Below, piece by piece: positions 5,798-49,056 of a DNA stretch of 55,487 nt (positions within the stretch are counted from its first letter, which is position 1; each line of letters begins with the position of its first letter). The DNA is taken from the NCBI GenBank assembly GCA_029779995.1, contig JAKOZM010000275.1:1-55487 (forward strand), read 5' to 3'. Position numbers and translations under genes: made by a program. The notes under the pieces were generated by a model. That model had not been told where the DNA came from. It made no database searches and saw nothing but the letters and a program-made list of their open reading frames with translations. The stretch is from Actinomycetes bacterium (lineage in GTDB: Bacteria > Actinomycetota > Actinomycetes > S36-B12 > UBA10799).

Positions 5798-6421
5798 TCA
5801 TCCGGTCCATCCGATATCGACTATGTGGCTGGAATCCCATGGTCGCTCCCAACCGGCCAAAGCGATGATGCGATCGAGTAAACCTGCTGTAAAACCCCAC
5901 ACCAGCATCCCGGCAACCGAGAAACCACTACCGATGTAGCCGCTGGGATGCCGCACGCTGACCCGATTCGCAGGGTCAGTCAGATCGGCCAACGGAATGC
6001 GGTGCACAGACTCCACCTCGGCCGGGTCCATGGCGGACACCGCACACGGTTCGCGCCAATAGCCCAGCACAGGAGTGACGACGAAGTTGGACGGTGGCAG
6101 CCAGAGGTTGGGCAACGTGTGCAGCACCTGCACACCGGCCGGATCCAGTCCGGTCTCCTCCTGGGCCTCCCGCAATGCGGCGGCGACGGCGTCCTCGTCC
6201 CCCGGGTCGACCGCCCCACCGGGGAAGGCCGGCTGGCCTGCGTGGCTGCGCATGTCGGCCGCCCGCTGGATGAGCAGCACGTCGGGGCCGTCCCCGAACA
6301 GGATCAGGACAGCGGACTTCCGGCCGGAGTCATCCGGAGGCAGGAACGGCGACAGGGCCTTGCCATCCAGATCGGCGGTGGCGCTCACCAGCGGCAGCAG
6401 CCAGTCGGGAACCTCATTCAT
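5798..6421 (-). CDS. NUDIX hydrolase, CoA pyrophosphatase-like
   Basis: A 207-residue NUDIX protein that probably hydrolyses a nucleoside diphosphate derivative such as CoA. The NUDIX helix is visible in GGAVDPGDEDAVAAALREAQ, followed by the EETGLD core. I take the ATG at 6421, not the longer reading frame, because it overlaps the nth stop as ATGA, and because the residues upstream of it lie inside nth. It corresponds to Rv3672c in the M. tuberculosis order. The operon is nth, this gene, marP. Confidence 0.9.
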   Translation of the reverse strand: MNEVPDWLLPLVSATADLDGKALSPFLPPDDSGRKSAVLILFGDGPDVLLIQRAADMRSHAGQPAFPGGAVDPGDEDAVAAALREAQEETGLDPAGVQVLHTLPNLWLPPSNFVVTPVLGYWREPCAVSAMDPAEVESVHRIPLADLTDPANRVSVRHPSGYIGSGFSVAGMLVWGFTAGLLDRIIALAGWERPWDSSHIVDIGWTG

Positions 6422-7107
6422 GGCCGCTTGATCATCTTCTCGGCCTTGCTGGCATCCTGCTCGCCGATGTCGTGGGACGGACACAGATGCCGGATCGGGC
6501 ACGCGGCGCAGGCGGGCTTACGAGCGAAGCAGCACCGCCTGCCGTGGAAGATGAGCCGGTGACTGACCATCGTGCGGTCCTTGCGCGGGAACAGCGCATC
6601 CAAGTCGTACTCGATACGCACCGGGTCGGAGTTCTCGGTCCAGCCCAGCCGGTTGCTCAGCCGGGTCACGTGGGTGTCGACCGTGAATCCGGGCTGGTCG
6701 AAGGCATTGCCGCGCACGACATGGGCGGTCTTGCGGCCCACACCGGGCAGGGTCGTCAGCGCTGACATCGGCCGCGGTATCTGCCCGCCGTACTTGGCGC
6801 AGACCCGCTGCGCCATGGCCTGCAACGAAGCCGCCTTGTTGCGGAAGAAGCCGGTGGAACGGATCAACTCCTCCAGCTCCGCGCGGTCCGCGGCGGCCAG
6901 CGCGGGCGGGTCGGGGTAGCGGGCGAACAGCCCGGGTGTCACCTGATTGACACGTTCATCAGTACATTGCGCACTCAGAATCGTGGCCACGAGTAACTCG
7001 TAAGGGTTGCGAAAATCGAGTTCGCAGTGGGCGTCGGGGTAGGTCTGGGCGAGCAAACGATCCACCGCACGCGCTCGTCGCACGAGGGCAAGCGGGGGTT
7101 TCGGCAT
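6418..7107 (-). CDS. nth: endonuclease III
   Basis: Base-excision repair glycosylase/AP lyase acting on oxidised pyrimidines. The 229-residue protein shows the helix-hairpin-helix LPGVGRKTAHVV with the catalytic Lys, the downstream catalytic Asp in FTVDTHVTRL, and the C-terminal iron-sulfur ligands with spacing C-x6-C-x2-C-x5-C (CFARKPACAACPIRHLC). The start at 7107 (MPKPPLAL) is chosen because the longer frame adds a low-complexity 27-residue extension, and a G-rich stretch precedes this ATG. It heads an operon with the NUDIX gene and marP, divergent from the RsiG-like gene. Confidence 0.96.
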   Translation of the reverse strand: MPKPPLALVRRARAVDRLLAQTYPDAHCELDFRNPYELLVATILSAQCTDERVNQVTPGLFARYPDPPALAAADRAELEELIRSTGFFRNKAASLQAMAQRVCAKYGGQIPRPMSALTTLPGVGRKTAHVVRGNAFDQPGFTVDTHVTRLSNRLGWTENSDPVRIEYDLDALFPRKDRTMVSHRLIFHGRRCCFARKPACAACPIRHLCPSHDIGEQDASKAEKMIKRP

Positions 7108-7240
7108 CCCCCCAGGGTAATCGCGGCGGCTGTTGGGTGCACCGGGCGGCGTCGAGCAGCCCGCCGGCCGAAGGTCATCGTGGGCCATATCACCCGTTCA
7201 GGCGGTTAGGGCTGCCGTACCGGGGGCCGATATCTCCACC

Positions 7241-7720
7241 ATGACCACGCTGCACGACGCGCCCCCCTCACTGCGCGACCTCGCACTCGATGATGTGCGG
7301 CGCCTGCGGCAGCACCTCACGGATGAGGAAGGGCGGGTCTCCTACTGGCGACGTCTGTTCCAGGCCCGCATGGACATGCTCAACGATGCTGACTCCGCCG
7401 ACACCGGCGACGTGCGCAAAGTCCTGGAGGACGCATCCAGCGCCCCTCGTCGCTGGCAGGCGCTGGGACTGCACCCGGCCGACATCGACACCACCATGCC
7501 GGAGGCACAGCAACTGTGGAGCCGAGTGGTGGACCTTAATGATGAGCAGCAGCGCGATGCCTACATGGCCCTGTTGATGCAGATGGAGACATCGCTGTCC
7601 CGCAACCGCCGTGCCCTGCACCAGCAGATCGATGCCGTCACCACCGAACTCATCGCCCGGTATCGGGCCAACCCGGCGCTGGCCCTGACCGCGCTACCGA
7701 CCCGGCGCAAGCCGGTCTGA
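7241..7720 (+). CDS. rsiG: RsiG-like c-di-GMP-responsive anti-sigma factor
   Basis: A 159-residue helical protein. It carries the RsiG signature E(X)3S(X)2R(X)3Q(X)3D exactly at Glu30, Ser34, Arg37, Gln41 and Asp45, and a second copy at Glu116, Ser120, Arg123, His127, Asp131, with His in place of Gln. In Streptomyces, RsiG binds c-di-GMP with two such helices and then holds the sporulation sigma factor WhiG; that role is known for the family, not shown here. I start at the ATG at 7241; the longer frame adds a proline- and arginine-rich stretch overlapping the divergent nth leader. It sits alone between nth and crp. No WhiG-type sigma factor is in this window. Confidence 0.8.
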   Translation: MTTLHDAPPSLRDLALDDVRRLRQHLTDEEGRVSYWRRLFQARMDMLNDADSADTGDVRKVLEDASSAPRRWQALGLHPADIDTTMPEAQQLWSRVVDLNDEQQRDAYMALLMQMETSLSRNRRALHQQIDAVTTELIARYRANPALALTALPTRRKPV

Positions 7721-7764
7721 GCGTTACCGGGCCACACCCGGCGATTGTGGGACAAACTAGGGGG

Positions 7765-8439
7765 GTGGATGACGTCTTGCGCCAAGCCCCCCTGTTCGCT
7801 GCCCTCGATGACGACGCTGCCGCCGCCCTGCAGTCGTCCACTGTGGAGGTGCGGTTGTCCAAAGGGCAGGACCTCTTCATGGAGGGCGAACGCGGCGATC
7901 GCATGTTCGTCATCACCGAGGGCAAGGTGAAACTCGGGCACACCGCCTCCGATGGCCGGGAGAGCCTGCTGGCCATCCTGGGGCCCGGGGAACTGCTCGG
8001 CGAACTGAGCCTGTTCGACCCCGGCCCGCGGACCGCGACGGCGACTGCTCTGACCGATGCCACCCTCATCGCCGTGGGCCACTCCGCCCTGCGCCCCTGG
8101 CTCACGGGACGTCCCGAGGTCGCTGAGGCGCTGCTGCAGGCGCTGGCACAGCGGCTGCGCCGCACGAACGAAGCCATGGCCGACCTCGTCTTCTCCGACG
8201 TGCCGGGCCGCATCGCCAAGATCCTGCTCGAGCTCGGGGACAAGTTCGGCCGGCAGATGCCCGATGGCCTGCACGTGACCCACGACATGACCCAGGAGGA
8301 GTTGGCCCAGCTGGTGGGCGCCTCCCGCGAGACGGTGAACAAGGCCCTGGCCGACTTCGCGAGCCGGGGCTGGATCCGGCTGGAGTCGCGCTCGGTCGTC
8401 CTCATCGACGTCGATCGCCTGCAGAAACGTGCCCGCTGA
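7765..8439 (+). CDS. crp: Crp/Fnr family transcriptional regulator
   Basis: Global cyclic-nucleotide-type regulator. The 224-residue protein begins VDDVLRQAPLF, the conserved N-terminus of actinobacterial Crp, which is why the GTG at 7765 is preferred to the one 18 nt upstream. A cNMP-binding beta-roll spans about residues 10-115, with the phosphate-binding cassette GELLGELSLFDPGPRTATA, followed by the dimer helix and a winged helix-turn-helix (MTQEELAQLVGASRETVNKA, about 170-190). The 3' end overlaps the next gene by 11 nt. The gene position between nth and the metallo-beta-lactamase matches Rv3676 of M. tuberculosis. Confidence 0.94.
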   Translation: MDDVLRQAPLFAALDDDAAAALQSSTVEVRLSKGQDLFMEGERGDRMFVITEGKVKLGHTASDGRESLLAILGPGELLGELSLFDPGPRTATATALTDATLIAVGHSALRPWLTGRPEVAEALLQALAQRLRRTNEAMADLVFSDVPGRIAKILLELGDKFGRQMPDGLHVTHDMTQEELAQLVGASRETVNKALADFASRGWIRLESRSVVLIDVDRLQKRAR

Positions 8440-9586
8440 GGTCCGACGTGCGATCGGGTGGGTGGCCGTCGGGGTCGCCGTCGCCCTGTGCTGGCACTAC
8501 CTGACCAAGGCCTCCACGGCCTATCTGCTCGACCTCGACGTGTACCGAGAGGCGGCCGCCGTCGCCTGGGACGGTGGCGATCTGTACGGGCAGGTGTACA
8601 CCGGCGTCGGGCTGCCGTGGCTGTACCCGCCGTTCGCGATCCTGTTCCTGACGCCCATCTCGGTACTCTCCGATGTCAGCGCCCAGGTCGTCTGGACCGC
8701 GATCACCCTGGCGGCGGTGATCGTGTTCGCGGTGGTCTGTGTGTGGAACTTCGCGGCCGACCGTTTCCACACCCTGCCGGTCTATGCGATCACCATCGCG
8801 TTCACCCTGATGATGGAACCCACGGAGTCGAACATCAACTTCGGGCAGATCAACATCCTGCTCGCTGTGTTCCTCGTGCTGGACCTTTCGTACCGCACGG
8901 GCCGCCTGCCGCAGGGAGTACTCACCGGGATCGCCGCGGCCGTCAAACTCACCCCCTTGCTCATCGCTGTCTACTACCTGGTCACCCGCCGCGTCCGATC
9001 AGCGCTGTGGACGATCGGCACCTTCATCGTCTGCAGCATCATCGCGTGGCTGGTGTTCCCGCAGGCCTCCTGGATCTACTGGACGGGCACGTTCCTGGAA
9101 TCCGACCGGGTCGGTGTCTCCTACATCAGCAACCAGTCGCTGAACGGAATGTTGCAGCGGGCGATCTCCGATCCGGACATCGCCCGGCTGGGGTGGCTGG
9201 CGGTGGGCGGGCTCGTAGCCATCGCCGTGCTCGTCATGGCTCACCACCTCTTCGGCACGTACCCGCACCTGACCGACGCGCTGGTTCTGGCGGCCATCCT
9301 GCTGGTGTCACCGATCAGCTGGACGGCGCACTGGATCCTGATCCTGCCGTTGCTGCTGGTGGCGGCGCTGCCTGATCGGCCGGTCCCCCTGCTGCAGGGA
9401 CTCGCGGCGGTGCTGGGGGTGGCGCTGATCTATGGCGTGGTGCGACCCTCCGAGACCGCGCAACGCCTGATCGAGCCGCAGACCGACAACCTGCTGTTCG
9501 CTAATACCTTCACCTGGCTCACGCTGGCGCTAGGCGCTGCCTGCACGATCTGGTACTGGCGGCGGGTGGACGAACCCGCGACCTGA
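8429..9586 (+). CDS. GT87-type (DUF2029) membrane glycosyltransferase
   Basis: A 385-residue polytopic membrane protein of the GT-C fold. It has about ten hydrophobic helices; the first loop contains DLDVYREAA and a WLYPPFA motif, typical of GT87/DUF2029 polyprenol-phosphate-mannose-dependent mannosyltransferases such as PimE-like enzymes. It should act on a lipid-linked acceptor at the outer face of the membrane; the acceptor cannot be read from sequence. The GTG start lies within the crp 3' end, suggesting coupling to crp. It is absent from the matching mycobacterial locus. Confidence 0.85.
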   Translation: MPAEVRRAIGWVAVGVAVALCWHYLTKASTAYLLDLDVYREAAAVAWDGGDLYGQVYTGVGLPWLYPPFAILFLTPISVLSDVSAQVVWTAITLAAVIVFAVVCVWNFAADRFHTLPVYAITIAFTLMMEPTESNINFGQINILLAVFLVLDLSYRTGRLPQGVLTGIAAAVKLTPLLIAVYYLVTRRVRSALWTIGTFIVCSIIAWLVFPQASWIYWTGTFLESDRVGVSYISNQSLNGMLQRAISDPDIARLGWLAVGGLVAIAVLVMAHHLFGTYPHLTDALVLAAILLVSPISWTAHWILILPLLLVAALPDRPVPLLQGLAAVLGVALIYGVVRPSETAQRLIEPQTDNLLFANTFTWLTLALGAACTIWYWRRVDEPAT

Positions 9587-9592
9587 CGTTCG

Positions 9593-10402
9593 TCAGAGAT
9601 GCCCCAGGTACTGCAGTTGGGCGCGCACACTCAGTTCCGCCGCCGGCCACAACACCTGCGGCACGTCGGCGTACACCCGCTCGACGACAGCGCGGGCCAG
9701 TGCGGGGCCGGGGGGCAGGTCGGCGGCCGCCGCGGCAACCTCGGCCAGGCGTTGCTGCCGATGCTCGAGGTAGGCGTCGATCACCGCTACCGCGTCGGGC
9801 AGCGCCGGCCCATGGCCGGGCCAGACGGCTGTGACGTGGCGCTGCGCCACCAGATCCCGCAGCCGCTGCAACGATTCCAAGTAGTCGGCCAAGCGGCCAT
9901 CCGGATGGGCGACCACAGTGGTGCCGCGGCCCAGGATCGTGTCCCCGGTGAGCAACGCACCCGCAACCGGCAGGTACAGGCTCACGGAGTCATGGGTGTG
10001 CCCCGGGGTGCTGACCACATGCACCTGCGCCTGCGGGTAGACCAGGACTTCACCGGGTGCCAGCCGGTCGTGGCCGGGCTGAGGGTCCAGCGCGCGCACC
10101 CCGGCCCGGAGGGCCTCGGCGAACAGGTTGGCGCCGGCACTGTGGTCGAGGTGGCCGTGGGTCAGCACGATGTCGCGGACCCATCGGTCACCCAGGGCCG
10201 CGCGCACCGCCTGCAGATGTGCGGGGTCATCGGGTCCGGGATCCACCAGGATCACCGACTCCGCATCCACGTCCAGCAGCCACGTGTTCGTGCCATCCAA
10301 GGTCATGGGACCGGGATTGCCGGCCAGCACACAGACCGCCCCGTCGAACGCACCGCCCGCCCAGGGCCCCATCGTCCCGGGCATTGCCACAAATCCACTC
10401 AC
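9593..10402 (-). CDS. metallo-beta-lactamase fold hydrolase
   Basis: A 269-residue MBL-fold hydrolase, RNase Z/glyoxalase II-like branch. The metal motif HGHLDH is at about residues 102-107, with further ligands in HTHDS and in the GDTILG and WPGHGP segments. Substrate unknown. The GTG start overlaps the upstream NUDIX stop as GTGA. It is the last gene of the run DUF4177, ridA, NUDIX, MBL and corresponds to Rv3677c. It converges with the GT87 gene 6 nt away. Confidence 0.93.
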   Translation of the reverse strand: MSGFVAMPGTMGPWAGGAFDGAVCVLAGNPGPMTLDGTNTWLLDVDAESVILVDPGPDDPAHLQAVRAALGDRWVRDIVLTHGHLDHSAGANLFAEALRAGVRALDPQPGHDRLAPGEVLVYPQAQVHVVSTPGHTHDSVSLYLPVAGALLTGDTILGRGTTVVAHPDGRLADYLESLQRLRDLVAQRHVTAVWPGHGPALPDAVAVIDAYLEHRQQRLAEVAAAAADLPPGPALARAVVERVYADVPQVLWPAAELSVRAQLQYLGHL

Positions 10403-11100
10403 AACCGGCGCCCCGTCCTGGCGTCAACCAGGATCCAAGCCACGTCGCCGTCGCGCGCCACGGGGTGCGGCATGATCGGCACCGGATCGCGGCGCACGGC
10501 CAGCACGTCGGCCACCGTGTCGAACTGGGCCAGTTCGGCCAGCACCGCAGCCGTCGGGGGCAGCATGGGCAGATCCTGGGCGCCGGCCGGGGTGTACCAG
10601 CCCACGTTCTGATGCTCAGTGGTGAAGCTGGCGAGGTCCTGTCCGGCCGGCAGGGCGGCGGCATAGAACCGGGTGTCGTACCGGCGGGTCTCCACCTCCG
10701 GGGTCACCCAATGGGCGAAGGGGTGCAGGGCCTGCACATCGGGGACCGCGGCCCACATGGCCAGCACCTGCGCGAAGTCACGGTCGCGCAGATCCGCCAC
10801 CTCTGCGGGCGGAGCGGGACGGGTGAGCAGCACCCCGCACTCCTCGAATGTCTCCCGGATAGCGGCCACCAGCCAGGGGTCCCCGAGGTCGGCGTCGGCA
10901 GCGTCAAGAGCACCGCCGGGGAACACATACATGTCTCTTGCAAAGGCCAACGTCGTGGCCCGCTGGAGCAGGGCGACCTGCAAGCCATCCGCGTCACGCA
11001 GCAGGACCAGCGTCGACGCCGGACGGGCCGACGGCGGGGTCCAATCCCCGCCGTACACGATCGCCCGGGCCCGCTCGACCAACTGCGCAGGCATCCGCAT
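10399..11100 (-). CDS. NUDIX hydrolase
   Basis: A 233-residue NUDIX-family protein. The box is visible as GGALDAADADLGDPWLVAAI followed by RETFEECGVLL, with the REUXEEXGU core intact. The start at 11100 is selected because it shares one base with the ridA stop (TGATG), and the longer open frame upstream runs through ridA. Such NUDIX genes next to an MBL gene are common in actinobacteria, but the substrate is not known. Stop/start overlaps tie it to both neighbours, so the four genes are probably one mRNA. Confidence 0.9.
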   Translation of the reverse strand: MRMPAQLVERARAIVYGGDWTPPSARPASTLVLLRDADGLQVALLQRATTLAFARDMYVFPGGALDAADADLGDPWLVAAIRETFEECGVLLTRPAPPAEVADLRDRDFAQVLAMWAAVPDVQALHPFAHWVTPEVETRRYDTRFYAAALPAGQDLASFTTEHQNVGWYTPAGAQDLPMLPPTAAVLAELAQFDTVADVLAVRRDPVPIMPHPVARDGDVAWILVDARTGRRL

Positions 11101-20623: not shown

Positions 20624-20683
<60 letters not shown>

Positions 20684-20697
<14 letters not shown>

Positions 20698-34289: not shown

Positions 34290-34411
34290 GGTGAATGCCT
34301 CCCCCGTAGGCATCGCGTTCGGCGCATGTCGGCGCACTCTGCTTAAGACGGTCACACTCTGCGCTTCGGCAACTGATCGCACCGCCTTGATCACATGGGC
34401 GCAAATACCCC

Positions 34412-40115: not shown

Positions 40116-41498
40116 TCACATGTCTCCGGCCGGCAGGCGCTGCACCCAGCGCTGGTAGGCCCCCTCCAGGTCCGGATTCGGCCGGGGTTCGAAGCACAGC
40201 GGCTGCCCGGACGCCACCGTGATGGTCTGGCCGATACCCGTGGCCGCCAGCATCGCGGCCCCCAGCGCGGACGCGCTGCGGTCGGGCACCACGCTGATCG
40301 TGGCCCCGAGCACGTCGGCCAGCATCTGGGCGACAAAGGGTTCCCGGACTCCGCCGCCGGACACCCGGACCTGCTGCTGGTCGCCGGCCAGCAATTCCAC
40401 CCCCTGGCGCACGGTGAACAGCATGCCCTCGATCGCGGCCCGTGCCAGGTGCGCCGGCGTGGTCGCATCGGACAGACCCAGCCAGGCACCACGGGTCGTG
40501 GGTTGCGCAACGCCCCCGCGTTCCCCCGACAGGAACGGCACCACGCAAACGCCCCCCGCACCGGTCGGTACGGACTCGGCGGCGGCGAAGAAGTCAGACC
40601 ACTGCAACCCGAGCCACTCCCGGGTCTTGTTCAGGGCCAGGCCTGCGTTCTGGATCGCTGCCATCCCGTACCAGCCGCTGGCCGCATCAGCGTACAGGTG
40701 GGTCAGCGGATCGGGGGTCGGTTGCGGATCAGCCACTCCGACCAGGATCTGGGCGCCGGTCCCGAGATTGATCTGCACCTGCCCCGGCAGCAGTCCCCCG
40801 GTCCCGAGCAGCGCCGCGGGCGTGTCACCCGCTCCGGCCACCAGGGCGGGGTCACCCGGCAGGGCGGCCTGGCCGACCACCCAGTGGCTTGAGACGACAT
40901 CGGGGAGCAGGTCGGCGGGCAGGCCCAAGGCGGCCACCACATCAAGATCCCAGGTGTCCCCCGGGATGTCCCACAGCAGCGTCGCCGAGGCGTCACTGCG
41001 TTCGGCGACCAGCGGACCACCGAGCCGGAAGCGGACGTAGTCCTTGGGCTGCAGCGCGACGGCCGCGCACTGCCACGTGACCGGCTCGTTGGCCTGGACC
41101 CAGCGCAGCATCGGCCCGGCCATACCAGCGACCAGCGGATTGGCCAGCCGCAGCCGTCGTGCGCTGCTCAACGCGCGCCAGGCGGTCAGTTCGCTCTGCG
41201 CCCGGCGATCGGGCCACAGCATCGCCGGCCGGCAGGGCGTGCCCTCGTCGTCGACGAGGACCAGCCCATGCATCTGACCCGCGATGCCGACACTGACGAA
41301 CCGCAGAGCGGCCAGCGGTGTCAACGCCGTCCGCAGGGCGTCGTCCCACTGCTGTGGTGCGATCTCGGCGTACCCCGGGCAGGGTCGCTCGACGGCATAG
41401 GAGGCCTCCGCCTGGGCCGCCACCGTACCGTCATCGCGCACAGCGGCCACTTTCACGCCGCTCGTGCCGAGGTCGATGCCCAGGTAGAGATCGCTCAT
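40116..41498 (-). CDS. xylB: FGGY-family sugar kinase, xylulokinase-like
   Basis: Phosphorylates a ketose, most likely D-xylulose to D-xylulose 5-phosphate. The 460-residue protein has the phosphate loop GIDLGTSGVKVAAV (about 7-20), the IAGQMHGLVLVDDEG motif typical of XylB, and PFLSGERGG and GARDGDTPAALLGTG-like loops in the second domain. The ATG at 41498 shares a base with the stop of the epimerase gene (TAATG), so it is the last gene of the sugar operon. The true substrate may be the ketose made by the epimerase. Confidence 0.9.
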   Translation of the reverse strand: MSDLYLGIDLGTSGVKVAAVRDDGTVAAQAEASYAVERPCPGYAEIAPQQWDDALRTALTPLAALRFVSVGIAGQMHGLVLVDDEGTPCRPAMLWPDRRAQSELTAWRALSSARRLRLANPLVAGMAGPMLRWVQANEPVTWQCAAVALQPKDYVRFRLGGPLVAERSDASATLLWDIPGDTWDLDVVAALGLPADLLPDVVSSHWVVGQAALPGDPALVAGAGDTPAALLGTGGLLPGQVQINLGTGAQILVGVADPQPTPDPLTHLYADAASGWYGMAAIQNAGLALNKTREWLGLQWSDFFAAAESVPTGAGGVCVVPFLSGERGGVAQPTTRGAWLGLSDATTPAHLARAAIEGMLFTVRQGVELLAGDQQQVRVSGGGVREPFVAQMLADVLGATISVVPDRSASALGAAMLAATGIGQTITVASGQPLCFEPRPNPDLEGAYQRWVQRLPAGDM

Positions 41499-42343
41499 TA
41501 CCGCAGATGCTCCGCCATGTACCCGTAGGCGTGTTCGGCGAGGTTCTCGCTGTCGTCCCACAAGTTGCGCCACACGGACAGGATGTTGCTCAGTTCCGGG
41601 TGCACGACCGCCGAGGAGAACGATTCGAAGGTCACCGGCCCGGTGTAGCCGGACTCGCGCAGGGCCGCGAAGAACGTCGGGAAGTCGATGGTCCCGGTCC
41701 CGAGGTAGCCGCGGTGCGACTCCCCGACGTGGACATAGCCGAGGCGTTGTCCAGCAGTCTGCACCGGCTCGATGAAGCCGTTCTCCTCAATGTTGGCGTG
41801 GTAGGTGTCCAGGTGCACCGTGATGTCGGCACCGGCCTCGTCGAGCAGCGTCAGCATGTCGGCGACGGTGTTGACGACGTTGGTCTCATACCGGTTGACG
41901 ACCTCCAGGGAGGTGGGCAGCTCAGCAGCGGCGACCTGGTCGGACAGCCAGGCGACACTCTCGACGACATGCTGTCGGGAGAGGGCCGTGATCGGTGCCG
42001 GGTACTTGGCCAACTGCGAGTAGAGCACACCACATAGATTCCCCGCACCGATGCCACTAGCCACCTCAATCGCCGCCGACAGCCGGTCACGGCCGCGGGC
42101 CACGATGGCGGGGTCCGCACTGGACACATCGGTGTCGGGTGACAACCCGAGCGAACAGGCGGCCAGCAGGCCGTTGTCCGCCAGAAGTTGCCGGGTCATC
42201 GCGATGTCAAAGGTCTCCGGCTCAAGGATGGGGATCTCGATGAGATCAAAGCCCACGGCCTTCGTCCGTTCGATCGCATAGCGAGCAGACTCGGGGGTCC
42301 ATTCACCGGTCCATACGAGGGCATGCAGACCCAACGGGTTCAT
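41498..42343 (-). CDS. ketose 3-epimerase family TIM-barrel protein
   Basis: A 281-residue xylose-isomerase-like TIM barrel. The residues of D-tagatose/D-psicose 3-epimerases are in place: Glu147 (SLEVVNRYE), Asp179 (HLDTYH), His205 (YVHVGESHRGYLG), Arg211 and Glu240 (TFESFSS), matching the metal and acid/base set of that family. It would interconvert ketoses at C3. Stop/start overlaps (ATGA with the ABC ATPase, TAATG with the kinase) place it inside the sugar operon. Confidence 0.88.
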   Translation of the reverse strand: MNPLGLHALVWTGEWTPESARYAIERTKAVGFDLIEIPILEPETFDIAMTRQLLADNGLLAACSLGLSPDTDVSSADPAIVARGRDRLSAAIEVASGIGAGNLCGVLYSQLAKYPAPITALSRQHVVESVAWLSDQVAAAELPTSLEVVNRYETNVVNTVADMLTLLDEAGADITVHLDTYHANIEENGFIEPVQTAGQRLGYVHVGESHRGYLGTGTIDFPTFFAALRESGYTGPVTFESFSSAVVHPELSNILSVWRNLWDDSENLAEHAYGYMAEHLR

Positions 42344-43119
42344 GCGGATTCTCCCTTCACGTAGTCGGGGTCGGCGGGGATGGCGCCGGTGACGAGGCCG
42401 ACGAGCTCGTCGCCAGTAGTGGTCGCGGCGCGCCGCGAGGCCACCGTGCGCCCGGAGCGCATGACGGTCACGGCGTCGGAGAGCCGGAGCACCTGGTCGA
42501 AGTTGTGACTGATCAGCAGGATGGAGATGCCGCGGGCGCGGAGGTCGTGGATGAGTTCCTCGACCTTGGCGGTCTCCTGGACGCCGAGGGCTGCGGTCGG
42601 CTCATCCATCATGACGATCTCCGAACCCCAGCCCGCCGCGCGAGCGATGGCCACGGCCTGCCGCTGGCCGCCGGACAACCGGCGCACCCTGGACTTCACG
42701 GAGGGAACGTTGATGGCCAAGGTCGAGACCATCGTGGTCGCCTCCTTGGTCATGGTTCGCCGGTTCATCAGCCGCAGCGGTCCGAAACCGGAGGTGAGCT
42801 CGCGACTGAGGAACAGGTTCTGCCACACCGTGAGATCCTCGACGAGCGCCAGGTTCTGGTGCACGGTCTCGATGCCGGCCTCGCGGGCCTGCTCGGGATT
42901 GCTGAACCGGACCGGGTTGCCGTTGACAGTGACCTGCCCGGCGTCTGGGTTGTGGATGCCGCAGATGCAGCGCACGAGCGTCGACTTGCCGGCGCCGTTG
43001 TCGCCGATGAGGGCGGTGACTTCGCCGCGCTGCATCGTCAAGGAGGCGTCCTTGAGCGCGTGGACATTGCCGAAGCTCTTGCGGATGTGGGTAGCGGTGA
43101 GTGCCGCGGACTCGGTCAT
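42340..43119 (-). CDS. sugar ABC transporter ATPase (single-domain, FrcA-like)
   Basis: A 259-residue ATP-binding subunit. Walker A is GDNGAGKST, the signature is RRLSGGQRQAVAIARA, Walker B is VMMDEPTAALG, and the His switch is ISHN. It has one nucleotide domain, like FrcA of the fructose system, whereas RbsA/AraG types have two. Its start at 43119 overlaps the permease stop (ATGA); the longer frame is a shadow of the permease. Confidence 0.94.
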   Translation of the reverse strand: MTESAALTATHIRKSFGNVHALKDASLTMQRGEVTALIGDNGAGKSTLVRCICGIHNPDAGQVTVNGNPVRFSNPEQAREAGIETVHQNLALVEDLTVWQNLFLSRELTSGFGPLRLMNRRTMTKEATTMVSTLAINVPSVKSRVRRLSGGQRQAVAIARAAGWGSEIVMMDEPTAALGVQETAKVEELIHDLRARGISILLISHNFDQVLRLSDAVTVMRSGRTVASRRAATTTGDELVGLVTGAIPADPDYVKGESA

Positions 43120-44096
43120 TTCTGGAACCTCGTGAGCAGGGCCGCCAGCACCACGACGATGCCTACGGCGAGCGGTTGGTAGAACTGCGACAGTCCAAGC
43201 AGGGTCAGCCCATTGACAAGGGCCGTCAGGAGGAGCGCTCCCATCACGGGTCCGATGATGGTTGCACGACCCCCGAACAGACTGACCCCGCCCAGGACCA
43301 CCGCGGCGACCGAGTTGAGCAGGAAGCTGGTGTTGCTCGCGGGCTCTGCAGCTCCGACGCGCGCCACCAGCAGGATCGCGGCCACCCCCGCGAGGACACC
43401 GCTGAGGGTGTACACCGCGATCTTGACGCGGGCGGTGCGCACTCCGACCGCCCGCGCGCTCTCCTCGGATCCGCCCGTGGCCAGAACATGCAGGCCGAAG
43501 CGGCTGTTGAAGAGCACGAAGTGCGCGACAACAGCCACGACAGCCGCGATGATGACTGACCAGTTGAAGGGACCGACACCGCTGGAGGCCAGCTTCAGCA
43601 TCACCTTGTTGAGCACGGTGATGGGCTTGCCGTCCGAGATGATCAGGGCCAGACCGGACGCCGCCGACAACGCACCGAGGGTGACGATGAAGTCGGTGAT
43701 CCGGCCTTTGGCGATGATGGTCCCGTTGATCAGGCCCACCGCCCCCGCCGCGGCCACACCAGCCACCATCGCCAACCAGATGTTGTCGGTCCCGGTGTAC
43801 ACCAGGCCCAAGACGATGGCACCCAAGGTCATGACGGACGCCATGGACAGATCGATGCCGGCGGTAGCGACGACGAAGGTTTGACCAACTGCCAGCACAA
43901 CCAGGATGGCGCTGGCCTGCAGCATCGCCTCGATGTTGCCACCCGACACGAAGGTCGGGTCCAGCACACCGAAGATGATGATGAGGGCGACCAAACCTAG
44001 TGGGGCTGCCAGTTCGGGCCACGGCGCCGAGGCGAGCCGGCTCCCTAGGCCGGCTTTCTCTTCAGCGTCGGTGACCGCGGGGGAAACAGTGGACAT
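43116..44096 (-). CDS. sugar ABC transporter permease (RbsC/FrcC family)
   Basis: A 326-residue permease with eight to ten helices of the BPD_transp_2 family. The EAA-like loop and the segment VVATAGIDLSMASVMTLGAI (about 75-94) are typical of ribose/xylose/fructose permeases. It pairs with the single-domain ATPase and the binding protein for a CUT2-type importer. It lies 6 nt after the binding-protein stop. Confidence 0.94.
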   Translation of the reverse strand: MSTVSPAVTDAEEKAGLGSRLASAPWPELAAPLGLVALIIIFGVLDPTFVSGGNIEAMLQASAILVVLAVGQTFVVATAGIDLSMASVMTLGAIVLGLVYTGTDNIWLAMVAGVAAAGAVGLINGTIIAKGRITDFIVTLGALSAASGLALIISDGKPITVLNKVMLKLASSGVGPFNWSVIIAAVVAVVAHFVLFNSRFGLHVLATGGSEESARAVGVRTARVKIAVYTLSGVLAGVAAILLVARVGAAEPASNTSFLLNSVAAVVLGGVSLFGGRATIIGPVMGALLLTALVNGLTLLGLSQFYQPLAVGIVVVLAALLTRFQK

Positions 44097-44102
44097 GTTT
44101 GA

Positions 44103-45141
44103 TCAGCTCCCGGACAGCGGGTTCTGGTACTCCTCGAACGGCGCGGGGAAGGCGGCGATGGCCTGTTCCGCGTTGTCCTTGGTCACCAGAGCCGTGGGCG
44201 ACTCGATATTGGTGGGGATCTCCTGCCCGGCCAGGACAGCTTCACACGCCTGCACACCGAGCGCGCCGATCTCGTACGGGTACTGCGCGACGGTGGCTGT
44301 CAGGTCACCCGCTGCGACGGACTTCAGCGCGTCCTCGTTGCCGTCGACACTGATCACCGCAATCTGGCCGGTCTTGCCCTCGTTGGCGACAGCGCGCGCG
44401 ATGCCGAGGCCCATGTCGTCATTGGCCGCGAAGAAGCCCTTGAGGTCCGGGTTGGCCTGCATGATGTCGGTCGCAGCCGTCAGCGCCTTCTGCCGCTCCC
44501 AGTCGGCAGCGGTCGTCTGGACGATCTCCAGCTTGCCGTCGACCGCGGCGGTGAAGCCGTCGAGACGGGCCTGGCTGGTCACGTCACCGGCGATGCCGCC
44601 GATCAGGGCGACCTGACCGCTGCTGACGGTCTCGACCATGTAGTCGCCGGCCTTGCCACCGGCGGCTTCGTTGTTGGTGCCGATGTAGGTCTTGGCGACG
44701 ACGTCGGCCTCCTTGGCGGCAGCCTCATCCAAGGGGCTATCGATGTTGACGATGGGCGTCCCCTCGGCAGCGACAGGCGCGAGCGCCTGCACCAGGTTGG
44801 TGCCCGAGATCGGGTTGATCACGAAGCAGTTGAAGTCCTGCTGCGCCATCGCGGTGAGCTTCTCAGCCTGGCCGGTCGTGTCGGTGATGCTGGTTGCAGC
44901 CTGCACGGTCACCTCGGCACCGGACTCCTGCGCCGATGCGTTGATGCCATCCTCCATGGCCTGGAAGAACGGATTGTCCAGTCCCTTGATGACCGCAGCG
45001 ATGTTGGCGGCGTCGCCGCCCGCGGACTCTGCCGGTGAGGCGGACGCCGTGCCCGCATCGTCACTGGAACTACTGCATCCGGTGAGCAGCAGGGCCCGCG
45101 ACTGCGAACCCACCCACCCACATACGTTTTCCCTTAATCAT
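44103..45141 (-). CDS. sugar-binding lipoprotein, ABC importer, with apparent frameshift in signal peptide
   Basis: A periplasmic-binding-protein-like lipoprotein (RbsB family) of about 340 residues. From the ATG at 45141, preceded 6 nt upstream by AGGAGG, the frame gives MIKGKRMWVGGFAVA; one base later, in another frame, it continues ALLLTGCSSSSDD with a perfect lipobox. Skipping one G in the GGG run near 45094-45098 joins the two into a textbook 22-residue lipoprotein signal. The mature domain (NPFFQAMEDGINASA, TNNEAAGGKAGDYM, VISVDGNEDALKSVAAGDL) is intact. As written, the intact downstream frame would have to start at a poor GTG at 45113. Confidence 0.85.
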
Positions 45142-45184
45142 TCTTCGCCTCCTTATTGGCTTGCACCAGACATTAATACTCCAT

Positions 45185-45226
45185 TTGATGCGTGTCAATA
45201 GACAGTTAAATTGCTATAGTCATTCC
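45185..45226 (+). promoter_or_regulatory. ROK-gene promoter (leaderless) with candidate operator
   Basis: TATAGT (45215-45220) lies 6 nt before the GTG at 45227 and 17 nt after GTGTCA (45192-45197). No ribosome site is present. The inverted repeat TTGATGCGTGTCAA (45185-45198) overlaps the -35 and is a candidate ROK-regulator site serving both divergent units. Confidence 0.6.
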
Positions 45227-46411
45227 GTGACCAACGAGACAGACGAGCTTTTCGCCGTCGACGAGGGGACTGTCGGATTGGTGCGTCTGGTACGCGGGGC
45301 AGACTCCCTGAGCCGCGCTGACATCGGGCAGCGGACCGGGTGGGCGCGGGTGACCGTCAATCAACGATTGGACCGCGCGGTCGAGGCGGGTCTACTGGTG
45401 GAGGTGGGAACCGCGTCCAGTGCCCGGGGCCGCCCGGCGGCGCGTTTCGCGCTCAACGCCAACCGGGCACAGATCCTGGTGGCGGACATCGGTGCATCGG
45501 GAATGCGACTGGCCGCGACCGACCTGCTGGGGACCGTCCTACGGCGCACTGATCATGCCATCCGGATCGCAGAGGGGCCGGACGTGGTGCTGCAACAGGT
45601 CAGCGACGGTTTGACGGCTCTGCGCGACGAGGAGCTCCCGCTGTGGGGAGTGGGGGTGTCGGTGCCCGGGCCGGTGGAGTTCGCGACCGGCACCGTCGTC
45701 AACCCGCCCATCATGACCGGGTGGGACGGCACCAATATCCCAGCCCGCCTGTCACAGTTCGGACCACTGATCTTCGTCGACAACGACGTCAATGCCATGG
45801 TGATTGGCGAGCGCGCGGCCAGTTACCCGGCTGTCGATGATCTCCTACTGATCAAGGTAGGTACCGGTATCGGTGCCGGCATCATCGCGACCGGTAGGAC
45901 TCTGCGGGGGGCGCAGGGCGCGGCCGGCGACATCGGTCACATCCGGGCCGACATAGCAGGCGCCGGCGAGCCTCCGCTATGCCGGTGCGGGCAGTTGGGA
46001 TGCGTGGAGGCCTATGCCGGCGGTTGGGCGATCCTGCGGGACATGGCCGCAGCCGGCCGTGACGTGCACACGGTCGATGATGTGGTGCTGGCCGTGCAGA
46101 ACGGCGATCCGGTGGCCACCCGGCTGGTCCGCGAGGCCGGGCGCACGCTGGGTGCCACGGTCGCCGATGCGGTGGGGCTGCTCAATCCGGCTGTGATCGT
46201 GCTCGCCGGCCAGTTGTCGAGCACTGGTGAACATCTGCTGGCCGGGATCCGGGAGCGCATCTACTCGCGGTCGCTGCCGTTGGCTATGCGCGATCTGCAC
46301 ATCGCCGCGAGTGACCTGCAGGGCGATTCCGGTGTCCGCGGTCTCGCCCATGGCGCACTCGACCGCCTTTTTGAGGCCCGGCACCTCAATCAGGCGCTGG
46401 CCGTCGGCTGA
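45227..46411 (+). CDS. ROK-family transcriptional regulator
   Basis: A 394-residue sugar-responsive repressor, XylR/NagC-like. An N-terminal winged helix (SLSRADIGQRTGWARVTVNQ, about 25-44) is followed by a ROK domain (IGASGMRLAATDLLG, VDNDVNAMVIGE). The zinc motif C-x-C-G-x2-G-C-x-E is present (CRCGQLGCVEAY). The phosphate loop is altered from active kinases, fitting a repressor. It is divergent from the sugar operon and likely controls it. Confidence 0.93.
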   Translation: MTNETDELFAVDEGTVGLVRLVRGADSLSRADIGQRTGWARVTVNQRLDRAVEAGLLVEVGTASSARGRPAARFALNANRAQILVADIGASGMRLAATDLLGTVLRRTDHAIRIAEGPDVVLQQVSDGLTALRDEELPLWGVGVSVPGPVEFATGTVVNPPIMTGWDGTNIPARLSQFGPLIFVDNDVNAMVIGERAASYPAVDDLLLIKVGTGIGAGIIATGRTLRGAQGAAGDIGHIRADIAGAGEPPLCRCGQLGCVEAYAGGWAILRDMAAAGRDVHTVDDVVLAVQNGDPVATRLVREAGRTLGATVADAVGLLNPAVIVLAGQLSSTGEHLLAGIRERIYSRSLPLAMRDLHIAASDLQGDSGVRGLAHGALDRLFEARHLNQALAVG

Positions 46412-46446: not shown

Positions 46447-49056
46447 GTGGAGAACGAACTCACTCGCGAACTGCACCTGCTGGCCGGCGCACATGAGCAG
46501 GTTCTCCAGGAAGCTGGATTGCAGGCGATCGCCGAACAGGTGGCGGCCCTGCACGACGGGCGCCAGGTCGACCTCGCCGCGCTGCCTCTCGACGATGCGA
46601 TCCGGCTCGCCAACGCCCTGACCGTGCACCTGCATCTGGTCAATCTGGCCGACGAGCGGCACCGGGTGCGACTGCTCGATCTGCCCCACGCCCGCCCGGA
46701 CGCTGACGCTGGGGACGATCTCTGGCCGGCTGTCTCAGCGGCCGAGGGGGTCCGGGAGATGCTGGACCACCTGCGGATCCACCCCGTCCTCACGGCCCAT
46801 CCCACCGAAGCCAGGCGCCGGGCCATCGCCACCGCGCTGCGCAGGGTCAGCGAACAACTCCAGCGCCTGGAGAATCCGCGGCTCGGCCCGGAGGCCAAGG
46901 ATGTGGCCCGTCGCCGGCTGCTCGAAGAGGTCGAGCTGCTGCATCTCACCTCTGTGTTGCGCACGACACAGCCCGAACCGTTGGACGAGGTCCGCACCAT
47001 CATGACGGTCTTCGACCAGACGCTGATCCGCGCGGTACCGCGGTTGTACCGGGCCACCGAACGAGCCTTGATCGGTGAGGCCAGCGGAACTGTCCCGAGC
47101 CCGGTGCCGGCGTTCGTGCGGTTCGGCTCCTGGGTCGGTGGCGACCGCGACGGCAACCCCTTCGTGACTGCTGAAGTGACCCGGCGGACGGTGGCTGTGC
47201 AGTCCGAGCACGCGCTCACCGCTTTACAGGTCTCCGTCGAGCGGGTGGGCCGCACGCTGACCGCCGACCGCACCGACTCGCCCGGCTCGCGAGCGCTCAC
47301 CGAATCCCTGGAACGCGATGCGGTCGCGATGCCCGATGCGTTCGCCGAGATCAGTACGGGCTCTCCCGGGGAACCGCACCGGCAGAAGATGCTGGTGATC
47401 ACACAGCGGCTGCGGGCCACCCGCGCAGGCCGTGCGGAGCATTCCTACAGCGATGTGGAGGAACTGATCGCTGACCTGCGTCTGGTGCAGGACTCACTGG
47501 CTTCGGCAGGTGCCCGGCGGGCGGCGTTCGGTGAGCTGCAGCATGTCATCTGGTACGCGCAGACATTCGGCTTCCATCTGGCTGAGCTCGAAGTCCGCCA
47601 GCACTCCGAGGTGCACCGGGCAGCTCTGGCGGACCTCATCGGGCAGTTGCCCGACGCCCCGCCCGACGCCGCCGACGACGCGGCGTACCTGGACCACCTC
47701 GCCACGCAGGGCTGGCCGACTCATGTGGAAGCCCGCGAGCCGAAGACCCGGGAGGTTCTCGACACGCTGCGTGTCATGTCCTGGCTGCAGCAGCGCTGGG
47801 GGTCCGGGTGCTGTGGTCGCTACATCGTGTCGTTCTCCCACTCGCCGGCCAACCTGGTCGCCGTGCGTGCCCTGGCTCGGCTCGCCGTCGGGCAAGCGCC
47901 GCTGCGGTTGGATGTGGTGCCCTTGTTCGAAACCGGTGCCGACCTCGCTGCCGCCGGCACCGTGCTGGAGGAATGGCTCGGGTTGTCGTCCACGACCCAC
48001 TGGCTGGAGGGCACCGGACGGCAGGTCGAGGTCATGCTGGGTTACTCCGATTCAGCCAAGGATGTCGGGCCAACCGCGGCCACCCTGACGTTGGCGCAGG
48101 CGCAGACCGCAATGGTCGCCTGGGCGCGCGCCCACGACATCGAACTGACGATGTTCCACGGCCGGGGTGGTTCGCTGGGCCGTGGCGGCGGGCCCCTGCA
48201 CCGGGCGATCACCGCACAACCGCCGGGGTCGGTGGATGGCCGGTTGAAGGTGACCGAGCAGGGCGAGGTGGTGTTCGCCCGCTACGCCGACCCGACCATC
48301 GCCCAGCGACACCTCGAGCGCATCACCACGGCGGTGCTCCTCGCGAGCACGACGAAAGTTCAGCAGCGCAACGCCGTGGCCGCCGACAGGTTCGGGCAAC
48401 TGGGGCAACACCTCGCCCGAACCTCTCGGGCGTCGTATCGGGAGCTGGTCGAGATGCCGGGGTTCGCCGATGTCCTGGCCGAGGCGAGCCCGCTGGAGGA
48501 GATCGGCGACCTGCGCATGGGTTCGCGGCCGGTTCGCCGCAGTGCGGCCACGGCGGGCCGGGAGCTGTCGGACCTGCGAGCCATCCCGTGGGTCTTCGCG
48601 TGGTCACAGACCCGCGCCAACATCCCGGGGTGGTACGGGCTCGGAACGGCCCTGGCCGAGGTGGCAGACGTGGACCTGCTGCGGCAGGCGTACGCCGGTT
48701 GGCCCCTGTTCGCCTCGCTCATCGACATCGCGGAGATGAGCCTGGCCAAGAGCCACCGAGATCTGGCGGCCCACTTCCTGGCCTTGGGCGGCCGGCCCGA
48801 CATCGCCGACCGCATCCTGGGCGAGATGGACCTGACCATCTCGCAGGTGCTGACGGTGCTGGATCAGGACGAACTGCTGGAGCACAAGCAGGTGCTGGGC
48901 TCGGCGATTGCGCTGCGCGCCCCCTACGTCGACGCGCTGTCGCAGTTGCAGTTACGGGCGTTGACCCAGATGCGCGCCGGTGACCAGGAGGACTGGCGGC
49001 GGTTGCTGCTCCTGACCGTCAACGGGCTGGCGGCCGGGCTGCAGAACACCGGGTGA
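46447..49056 (+). CDS. ppc: phosphoenolpyruvate carboxylase
   Basis: Anaplerotic carboxylation of PEP to oxaloacetate. The 869-residue protein has the catalytic His in VLTAHPTEARRRAI (about 115), GGDRDGNPFVT, GYSDSAKDVGPTAATLTLAQ and FHGRGGSLGRGGGP (about 575), RAIPWVFAWSQTRANIPGWYG, and the C-terminal QNTG that closes the active site. It begins with GTG 35 nt after the ROK gene; CACACT lies about 6 nt before it, so it may have its own promoter. No other anaplerotic gene is near. Confidence 0.97.
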   Translation: MENELTRELHLLAGAHEQVLQEAGLQAIAEQVAALHDGRQVDLAALPLDDAIRLANALTVHLHLVNLADERHRVRLLDLPHARPDADAGDDLWPAVSAAEGVREMLDHLRIHPVLTAHPTEARRRAIATALRRVSEQLQRLENPRLGPEAKDVARRRLLEEVELLHLTSVLRTTQPEPLDEVRTIMTVFDQTLIRAVPRLYRATERALIGEASGTVPSPVPAFVRFGSWVGGDRDGNPFVTAEVTRRTVAVQSEHALTALQVSVERVGRTLTADRTDSPGSRALTESLERDAVAMPDAFAEISTGSPGEPHRQKMLVITQRLRATRAGRAEHSYSDVEELIADLRLVQDSLASAGARRAAFGELQHVIWYAQTFGFHLAELEVRQHSEVHRAALADLIGQLPDAPPDAADDAAYLDHLATQGWPTHVEAREPKTREVLDTLRVMSWLQQRWGSGCCGRYIVSFSHSPANLVAVRALARLAVGQAPLRLDVVPLFETGADLAAAGTVLEEWLGLSSTTHWLEGTGRQVEVMLGYSDSAKDVGPTAATLTLAQAQTAMVAWARAHDIELTMFHGRGGSLGRGGGPLHRAITAQPPGSVDGRLKVTEQGEVVFARYADPTIAQRHLERITTAVLLASTTKVQQRNAVAADRFGQLGQHLARTSRASYRELVEMPGFADVLAEASPLEEIGDLRMGSRPVRRSAATAGRELSDLRAIPWVFAWSQTRANIPGWYGLGTALAEVADVDLLRQAYAGWPLFASLIDIAEMSLAKSHRDLAAHFLALGGRPDIADRILGEMDLTISQVLTVLDQDELLEHKQVLGSAIALRAPYVDALSQLQLRALTQMRAGDQEDWRRLLLLTVNGLAAGLQNTG

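Follow-up and report, generated by a model that had tools for sequence, protein, structure and literature searches.

RsiG is a Streptomyces anti-sigma factor that is armed directly by cyclic di-GMP (c-di-GMP) and keeps a sigma factor silent. The Streptomyces venezuelae protein (PDB 6pfj and 6pfv), which acts against the sigma factor WhiG, belongs to Pfam family PF22802, carries two c-di-GMP motifs in each chain, forms an antiparallel coiled coil and co-occurs with WhiG. The Rubrobacter radiotolerans protein (7lq2) has a single motif, acts as a homodimer and has been proposed to control type IV pili, with WhiG-type promoters lying before pil genes and before genes for diguanylate cyclases and phosphodiesterases (DGC/PDE) (PMC8325347). 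A survey of 134 genomes recorded one second RsiG copy, Acel_1994 of Acidothermus cellulolyticus (PMC8325347).

Here we analyse rsiG2, a gene in a 55,487-nucleotide stretch of DNA from an Actinomycetes bacterium (the whole stretch is called the window; forward strand of contig JAKOZM010000275.1, assembly GCA_029779995.1). RsiG2 shares with S. venezuelae RsiG the protein family, the two motifs per chain, the predicted fold and the co-occurrence with WhiG. It differs from it in forming a separate clade, in usually having Gln in motif 1 and His in motif 2, in its linker and C-terminus, in its gene neighbourhood and in being usually additional to a canonical RsiG. The c-di-GMP motif is also common to RsiG2 and the R. 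radiotolerans protein, as are WhiG-type promoters ahead of pil and DGC/PDE genes, which are predicted here for the window's order; RsiG2 differs in that a single chain carries both motifs. With Acel_1994 it shares the character of a second RsiG in one genome. We propose, at a probability of roughly 0.6 for the reading as a whole, that RsiG2 is a c-di-GMP-armed anti-sigma factor for WhiG-type sigma factors that would control pili and c-di-GMP enzymes.

RsiG2 is a second branch of the RsiG family

The window protein is recognised by the RsiG-like family PF22802 in two stretches (E 1.1e-16; 60.7 bits, the cut-off being 27), while an NCBIfam scan of the same protein gave no match. S. venezuelae RsiG is its first match in the PDB by sequence (phmmer, 6pfj_T, E 6.6e-5) and its top match also by predicted fold, an antiparallel coiled coil as in 6pfj and 6pfv (AlphaFold2 model, mean predicted local distance difference test score 78). 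A preliminary description of this DNA had placed two copies of the c-di-GMP signature in the single chain, at residues 30-45 and, with His for Gln, at residues 116-131; both are there and fully intact, one on each of the two long predicted helices. With two motifs per chain, the window protein is excluded from the single-motif type of RsiG. Among 200,000 shuffles of the protein, none had two copies of E(X)3S(X)2R(X)3[Q/H](X)3D and 0.04% had at least one, and the other stop-to-stop frames of the window (312 frames of 90+ codons) contain none. Close homologs of the window protein were found on environmental contigs, of which a few bear the name Candidatus Nanopelagicales bacterium.

A search with the window protein matched 39 of the 119 genomes of the order of genome G001 (the order sample), and the matches fell into a strong (E <1e-15) and a weak class, often within the same genome. 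Strong matches, referred to as RsiG2, occurred in 33 genomes, canonical RsiG (RsiG1) in 32 and both in 25. The corresponding numbers in a class sample of 394 genomes, which overlaps the order sample in some genomes, are 76 for RsiG2, 110 for RsiG1, 60 for both and 16 for RsiG2 only, with RsiG1 called from sequence where this was fetched and, in the remaining cases, from the PF22802 score combined with the lack of an RsiG2-strength match there; two more genomes, whose PF22802 matches are weak, are in neither set.

In a tree of 110 rows, with labels preset from motif and context, 24 of the 30 Streptomyces-type rows omitted and an unsettled bootstrap, a branch (97/82) separates 71 RsiG2 rows from 39 others, including Streptomyces-type RsiG. 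The long-branch row L131 lies between this branch and the one (100/99) that sets off the remaining 38, and the inner branches are long (1.32, 0.38 and 0.45). The window protein falls on the RsiG2 side and does not group with canonical RsiG. Run against the 394 class genomes, an RsiG2 profile (A1, built from 59 RsiG2 rows) scored RsiG2 proteins at 151-218 bits, while the best of the other full-length matches reached 74 and one partial match 89, so that the scores of RsiG2 and canonical RsiG do not overlap. G028, the genome nearest to the window, has both proteins.

Judged by its sequence, the window protein belongs to a second, anciently separated and apparently undescribed branch of RsiG, and is not an RsiG ortholog. 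The kinship with RsiG put forward in the preliminary description is upheld by the family and structure matches; what has to be amended is its identity, which is that of a separate paralogous branch and not of RsiG itself. The survey of RsiG looked for reciprocal best hits of the Streptomyces protein and discarded 14 sequences that aligned poorly (PMC8325347), which may be the reason that it missed the branch. Searches of the open-licence literature on RsiG and PF22802, judged in part by titles and abstract openings, turned up no reference to the branch itself. Database records already name some of its members 'RsiG family protein' or 'anti-sigma-K factor RsiG', and the kinship is therefore already annotated.

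Conservation of the c-di-GMP motifs

Motif 1 is intact in 66 of the 71 RsiG2 rows and motif 2 in 29; in the 39 RsiG1 rows the counts are 36 and 33. The partial loss of motif 2 (42/71 RsiG2 rows) falls mainly on its His (Phe in 12) and its Asp (another residue in 23), and the E, S and R of both motifs and the D of motif 1 are retained in 61-70 of the 71 rows. The usual residue is Gln in motif 1 (60/71) and His in motif 2 (56/71). The motif-2 His, noted at first as a variant that could change ligand affinity, is thus the norm of the branch and the idea of an unusual residue is ruled out; His has been described, for motif 1, as suited to the same stacking contact (PMC8325347). RsiG2 proteins have a linker and tail of their own, with invariant R71, W93, R140 and P145, a linker consensus PPLPDLxxLW and a C-terminal consensus ELIARYRExPxLALxALP. 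Through its two intact motifs the window protein would be expected to bind c-di-GMP.

RsiG2 co-occurs with WhiG

WhiG matches of 260 bits or more are found in 28 of the 33 order-sample genomes with RsiG2 and in 5 of the 86 without it (p 3e-17, uncorrected for kinship). In the class sample the counts for WhiG above 240 bits are 64/76 with RsiG2 and 50/318 without (p 6e-30, likewise uncorrected). GGDEF domains were matched in all 33 order genomes that have RsiG2 and in 31 of the 86 others. Every class genome with WhiG above 240 bits (114/114) has an RsiG, and 12 of the 126 RsiG genomes are without such a WhiG; a strong WhiG is also missing from five of the 33 RsiG2 genomes of the order, and many of the sampled genomes are drafts. 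Among genomes in which RsiG2 is the only RsiG, WhiG is present in 10/16 (class) and 5/8 (order), and in those ten class genomes RsiG2 is therefore the only RsiG found for that WhiG.

The WhiG match in G028 reaches 281 bits and its GGDEF matches number 16, and a WhiG-type sigma factor, as first suggested, is the likeliest partner. For the window's own genome, both WhiG and pili would be expected from G028 and from the order. In the eight order loci that we viewed, by eye, whiG is usually located by a xerC-like gene or rpsB. G063 (WhiG at C69:8274-8954) is the only order-sample genome with WhiG of 260 bits or more in which no RsiG was found.

The rsiG2 locus and its linkage to pilus genes in some genomes

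The preliminary description named nth and crp as the neighbours of the gene, and their domains confirm a minus-strand nth upstream and a CRP-family regulator downstream (Table 1). The same order, with nth on the opposite strand and crp on the same strand, was found at 33/33 loci of the order sample. Since this synteny is conserved, RsiG2 is not a local insertion in the window genome, and the earlier wording that the gene is 'inserted' between nth and crp does not hold: a single insertion is ruled out and the nth-crp interval is the usual home of the branch. In Mycobacterium tuberculosis the interval presumably holds Rv3675, a small gene that we take to be unrelated.

Forty-eight further class loci, a part of the class RsiG2 loci, were fetched: both neighbours are present in 33, one in two and neither in 13, with two degenerate extra copies excluded from the locus counts. 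The 13 consist of seven loci of a sigma-linked group and six second copies in genomes that also have an nth-crp copy. Second RsiG2-like copies, with the signature L[RT]xSYWRR..Q.RRD, are L257 (G150), L259 (G231), L261 (G167), L263 (G183), L264 (G126) and L266 (G198); they adjoin a hisC-like gene in the three annotated loci (L257, L261 and L263, by eye). Extra RsiG2 copies with degenerate c-di-GMP motifs lie at G060:C9:26448-26894 (L127) and G050:C184:12285-12725 (L128).

The sigma-linked group comprises seven class genomes with RsiG2 away from nth and crp and without RsiG1 (G130, G152, G169, G184, G199, G256 and G456). In six of them a gene for a FliA/WhiG-type sigma factor lies within 8 kb of rsiG2 on the same contig; it adjoins rsiG2 in G456, where the two are co-directional, and in G256, where they are divergent. 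In G130, G152, G169 and G199, rsiG2 is placed between pilB and a set of pilM, pilN, pilO and prepilin peptidase genes, with the sigma gene beyond; in G184 the contig ends past pilO and a sigma gene of the same kind begins another contig. pilB on one side of rsiG2 and pilM-N-O on the other are thus seen in 5/7 genomes. Pfam matches in G199 comprise T2SSE, PilM, PilN, PilO, A24 peptidase and sigma domains, and those in G130 PilM, A24 peptidase and sigma. The closest named proteins to the G130 RsiG2 come from Sporichthya brevicatena, where the match is 96% identical, and Sporichthyaceae bacteria.

We compared the sigma factors of the 66 (out of 70) sigma loci that yielded sequence. K-x3-G-R, taken as the WhiG residues contacting c-di-GMP in the solved complexes (PMC8325347), is retained in 7/7 linked sigmas and 48/51 WhiGs, the remaining three WhiGs having Arg for Lys; among eight other sigmas it is present in one, absent in five and unreadable in two. 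In a quick tree, five of the seven linked sigmas form a clade beside WhiG, and those of G456 and G256 are long branches whose place is unsure. Co-occurrence and linkage are the two kinds of observation that bear on binding of WhiG by RsiG2. The three WhiGs with Arg for the c-di-GMP-contacting Lys (L056 in G066, L060 in G057 and L213 in G130) all come from genomes with RsiG2 and without canonical RsiG. In G274, a WhiG-type sigma with KYVAGR adjoins an EAL-like gene (L253, about 8236-10452, by eye); no RsiG was found within 20 kb of this sigma, nor by PF22802 in that genome.

Table 1. Features of the rsiG2 locus; positions are those of the window.
Feature	Position	Strand	Details and basis
nth, divergent upstream neighbour	6418..7188	-	HhH-GPD and EndIII FeS domains; conserved neighbour
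rsiG2	7241..7720	+	ATG 7241, stop 7720; 159 aa; open reading frame (ORF), PF22802, tree
Predicted helix alpha1 of the antiparallel coiled coil, residues 16-49	7286..7387	+	AlphaFold2 model
c-di-GMP motif 1, residues 30-45, EGRVSYWRRLFQARMD	7328..7375	+	Sequence; RsiG2 signature ExxVSYWRRxxQARxD
Predicted helix alpha5, residues 102-143	7544..7669	+	AlphaFold2 model
c-di-GMP motif 2, residues 116-131, ETSLSRNRRALHQQID, His for Gln	7586..7633	+	Sequence
crp-like regulator, downstream, co-directional	7747..8439	+	cNMP_binding and HTH_Crp_2 domains; start may be GTG 7767; conserved neighbour

Elsewhere in the window, the sole Rfam match at the gathering threshold is a tRNA gene (20624-20697). A sugar-uptake-like set (40119-46408: FGGY kinase, ABC permease with a BPD_transp_2 domain, periplasmic binding protein and ROK regulator) is followed by a phosphoenolpyruvate carboxylase gene at 46447.

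Other roles for RsiG2

With crp lying co-directionally downstream at 33/33 order loci and at all 34 class loci that have crp among the 48 fetched, the fixed nth-rsiG2-crp arrangement could also be that of a protein which binds c-di-GMP and no sigma factor, and which acts as an adaptor for another partner, for example the co-directional Crp, linking c-di-GMP to control by cyclic AMP (cAMP). This would agree with the linker, which is unlike that of canonical RsiG, and with the 25 of 33 RsiG2 genomes of the order that also have canonical RsiG, where WhiG would therefore need no second RsiG. However, seven RsiG2 loci away from crp are with or near a WhiG-type sigma gene (on another contig in G184), WhiG is kept in 10 of the 16 RsiG2-only class genomes, and the rsiG2-crp gap, which reaches 1.8 kb in some class loci, speaks against a constant operon. 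We therefore regard the adaptor role as unlikely.

The joint presence of RsiG2 and canonical RsiG in 60 of the 76 class genomes with RsiG2, and the frequent partial loss of motif 2, would be compatible with a decoy or anti-anti-sigma factor that draws c-di-GMP away from canonical RsiG by competition, or that enters dead-end complexes, and thereby promotes WhiG. Yet in 16 of these 76 genomes no canonical RsiG was found that could be countered, and RsiG2 is paired with a sigma factor in genomes without canonical RsiG, which makes this role improbable. That RsiG2 holds a different sigma factor, such as the SigB/SigF-like sigma common in these genomes, has only a slim chance of being right: among the matches listed, sigmas of about 110-135 bits stand beside WhiG in many order genomes, and five of the 33 RsiG2 genomes there are without a strong WhiG, but such matches are also found in many RsiG-less genomes (e.g. 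G007, G016 and G021), and the linked sigmas are nearer to WhiG in the tree, the two long branches apart, and keep K-x3-G-R.

Promoter-like elements at pilus and GGDEF-EAL genes

In the order sample, PilM is found in 19/33 genomes with RsiG2 and 18/86 without, and in 21 of the 33 genomes with WhiG. An element TCAAG-N-GCCGA was found by reading the regions upstream of pilM, which covered 31 of the 37 PilM genomes, and was later tested on further loci. In the form TCAAG-N-[GC]CCGA it precedes the PilM domain by about 100 nt (148 in one case) in 13/20 WhiG genomes and in 0/11 genomes that lack WhiG, the number expected from shuffling being 0.04 for each set; it is present in 9 of the 12 WhiG genomes whose reading brought it to notice and in 4 of the 8 read afterwards. 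G028 has a TCAA variant upstream of PilM. Copies on the same strand are also found in front of a Robl_LC7 gene and of a second T2SSE ATPase gene in G037, and in front of a pilin gene in G008; further same-strand copies in the G037, G008 and G042 clusters overlap called ORFs.

The form CTCAAG-N13..15-GCCGA lies on the same strand and no more than 1.5 kb upstream of 7 of the 28 GGDEF domains among the matches listed for eight WhiG genomes, and not once on the other strand or downstream of these domains (0.12 expected). Five of the seven elements start 14-73 nt ahead of a GGDEF-EAL gene as called, the one in G050 overlapping the called start, and two lie inside called ORFs. The GGDEF-EAL genes with a WhiG-type promoter-like element at or just before the called start are L332 and L334-L337 (in G008, G060, G050 and G042). 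Genome-wide, the element slightly exceeds its reversed control in 12 WhiG genomes (220 vs 189) and is below it in eight WhiG-less genomes (77 vs 102).

The exact flagellar consensus TAAA-N-GCCGATAA has no match in the window, and in 20 genomes it is matched in six, with no clear excess over control. Allowing two mismatches gave one match in total at the seven sigma-linked RsiG2 loci, not above shuffles, and 2, 6 and 8 matches at the whiG, RsiG1 and RsiG2 loci of the order against controls of 7.0, 6.7 and 6.7, which gives no sign of such promoters on these genes themselves. A match in the window to a TCAAG-N-GCCGA-like pattern (34366-34390) is not claimed, as 38 of 100 shuffles reach it.

RsiG2 probably helps to control type IV pili. 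The elements at GGDEF-EAL genes point to a possible feedback loop.

A proposed c-di-GMP switch

The branch, the conservation of the motifs, the predicted fold, the synteny, the co-occurrence, the linkage and the conserved promoter-like elements were all computed directly, and for the window itself the branch, the motifs and the neighbours are direct observations. From these we infer how the switch may work, including the binding of c-di-GMP and of the sigma factor and the direction of control. The two long helices would pack as an antiparallel coiled coil on which both motifs grip a c-di-GMP dimer. Loaded in this way, RsiG2 would use c-di-GMP and the linker to bind a sigma factor of the WhiG type (flagellar clade) and would keep it away from RNA polymerase. 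A drop in c-di-GMP would then free the sigma factor to transcribe type IV pilus and GGDEF-EAL genes, and because the latter are among its putative targets, the switch would feed back on its own signal. Most genomes would have RsiG2 acting beside canonical RsiG, both on one WhiG, whereas in the Sporichthya-like group it would serve the pilus-linked sigma factor.

More tentatively, and with somewhat less than even odds, in many actinobacteria two anciently separated c-di-GMP anti-sigma factors, RsiG and the crp-tied RsiG2, may act on one WhiG as a two-threshold or two-input switch. The ancestral output of this switch may have been type IV pili and the cell's own GGDEF-EAL enzymes, and sporulation in Streptomyces may be a late re-use after the loss of RsiG2.

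Almost no second RsiG copies were recorded in the 2021 survey (PMC8325347), whereas 76 of the 394 class genomes analysed here have RsiG2, most often at a constant location next to a gene encoding a cAMP-receptor-like regulator, and some of its kin are linked to sigma and pilus genes. This makes two matters testable now: whether the original target of the switch was pili or sporulation, and how one sigma factor responds to two c-di-GMP sensors.
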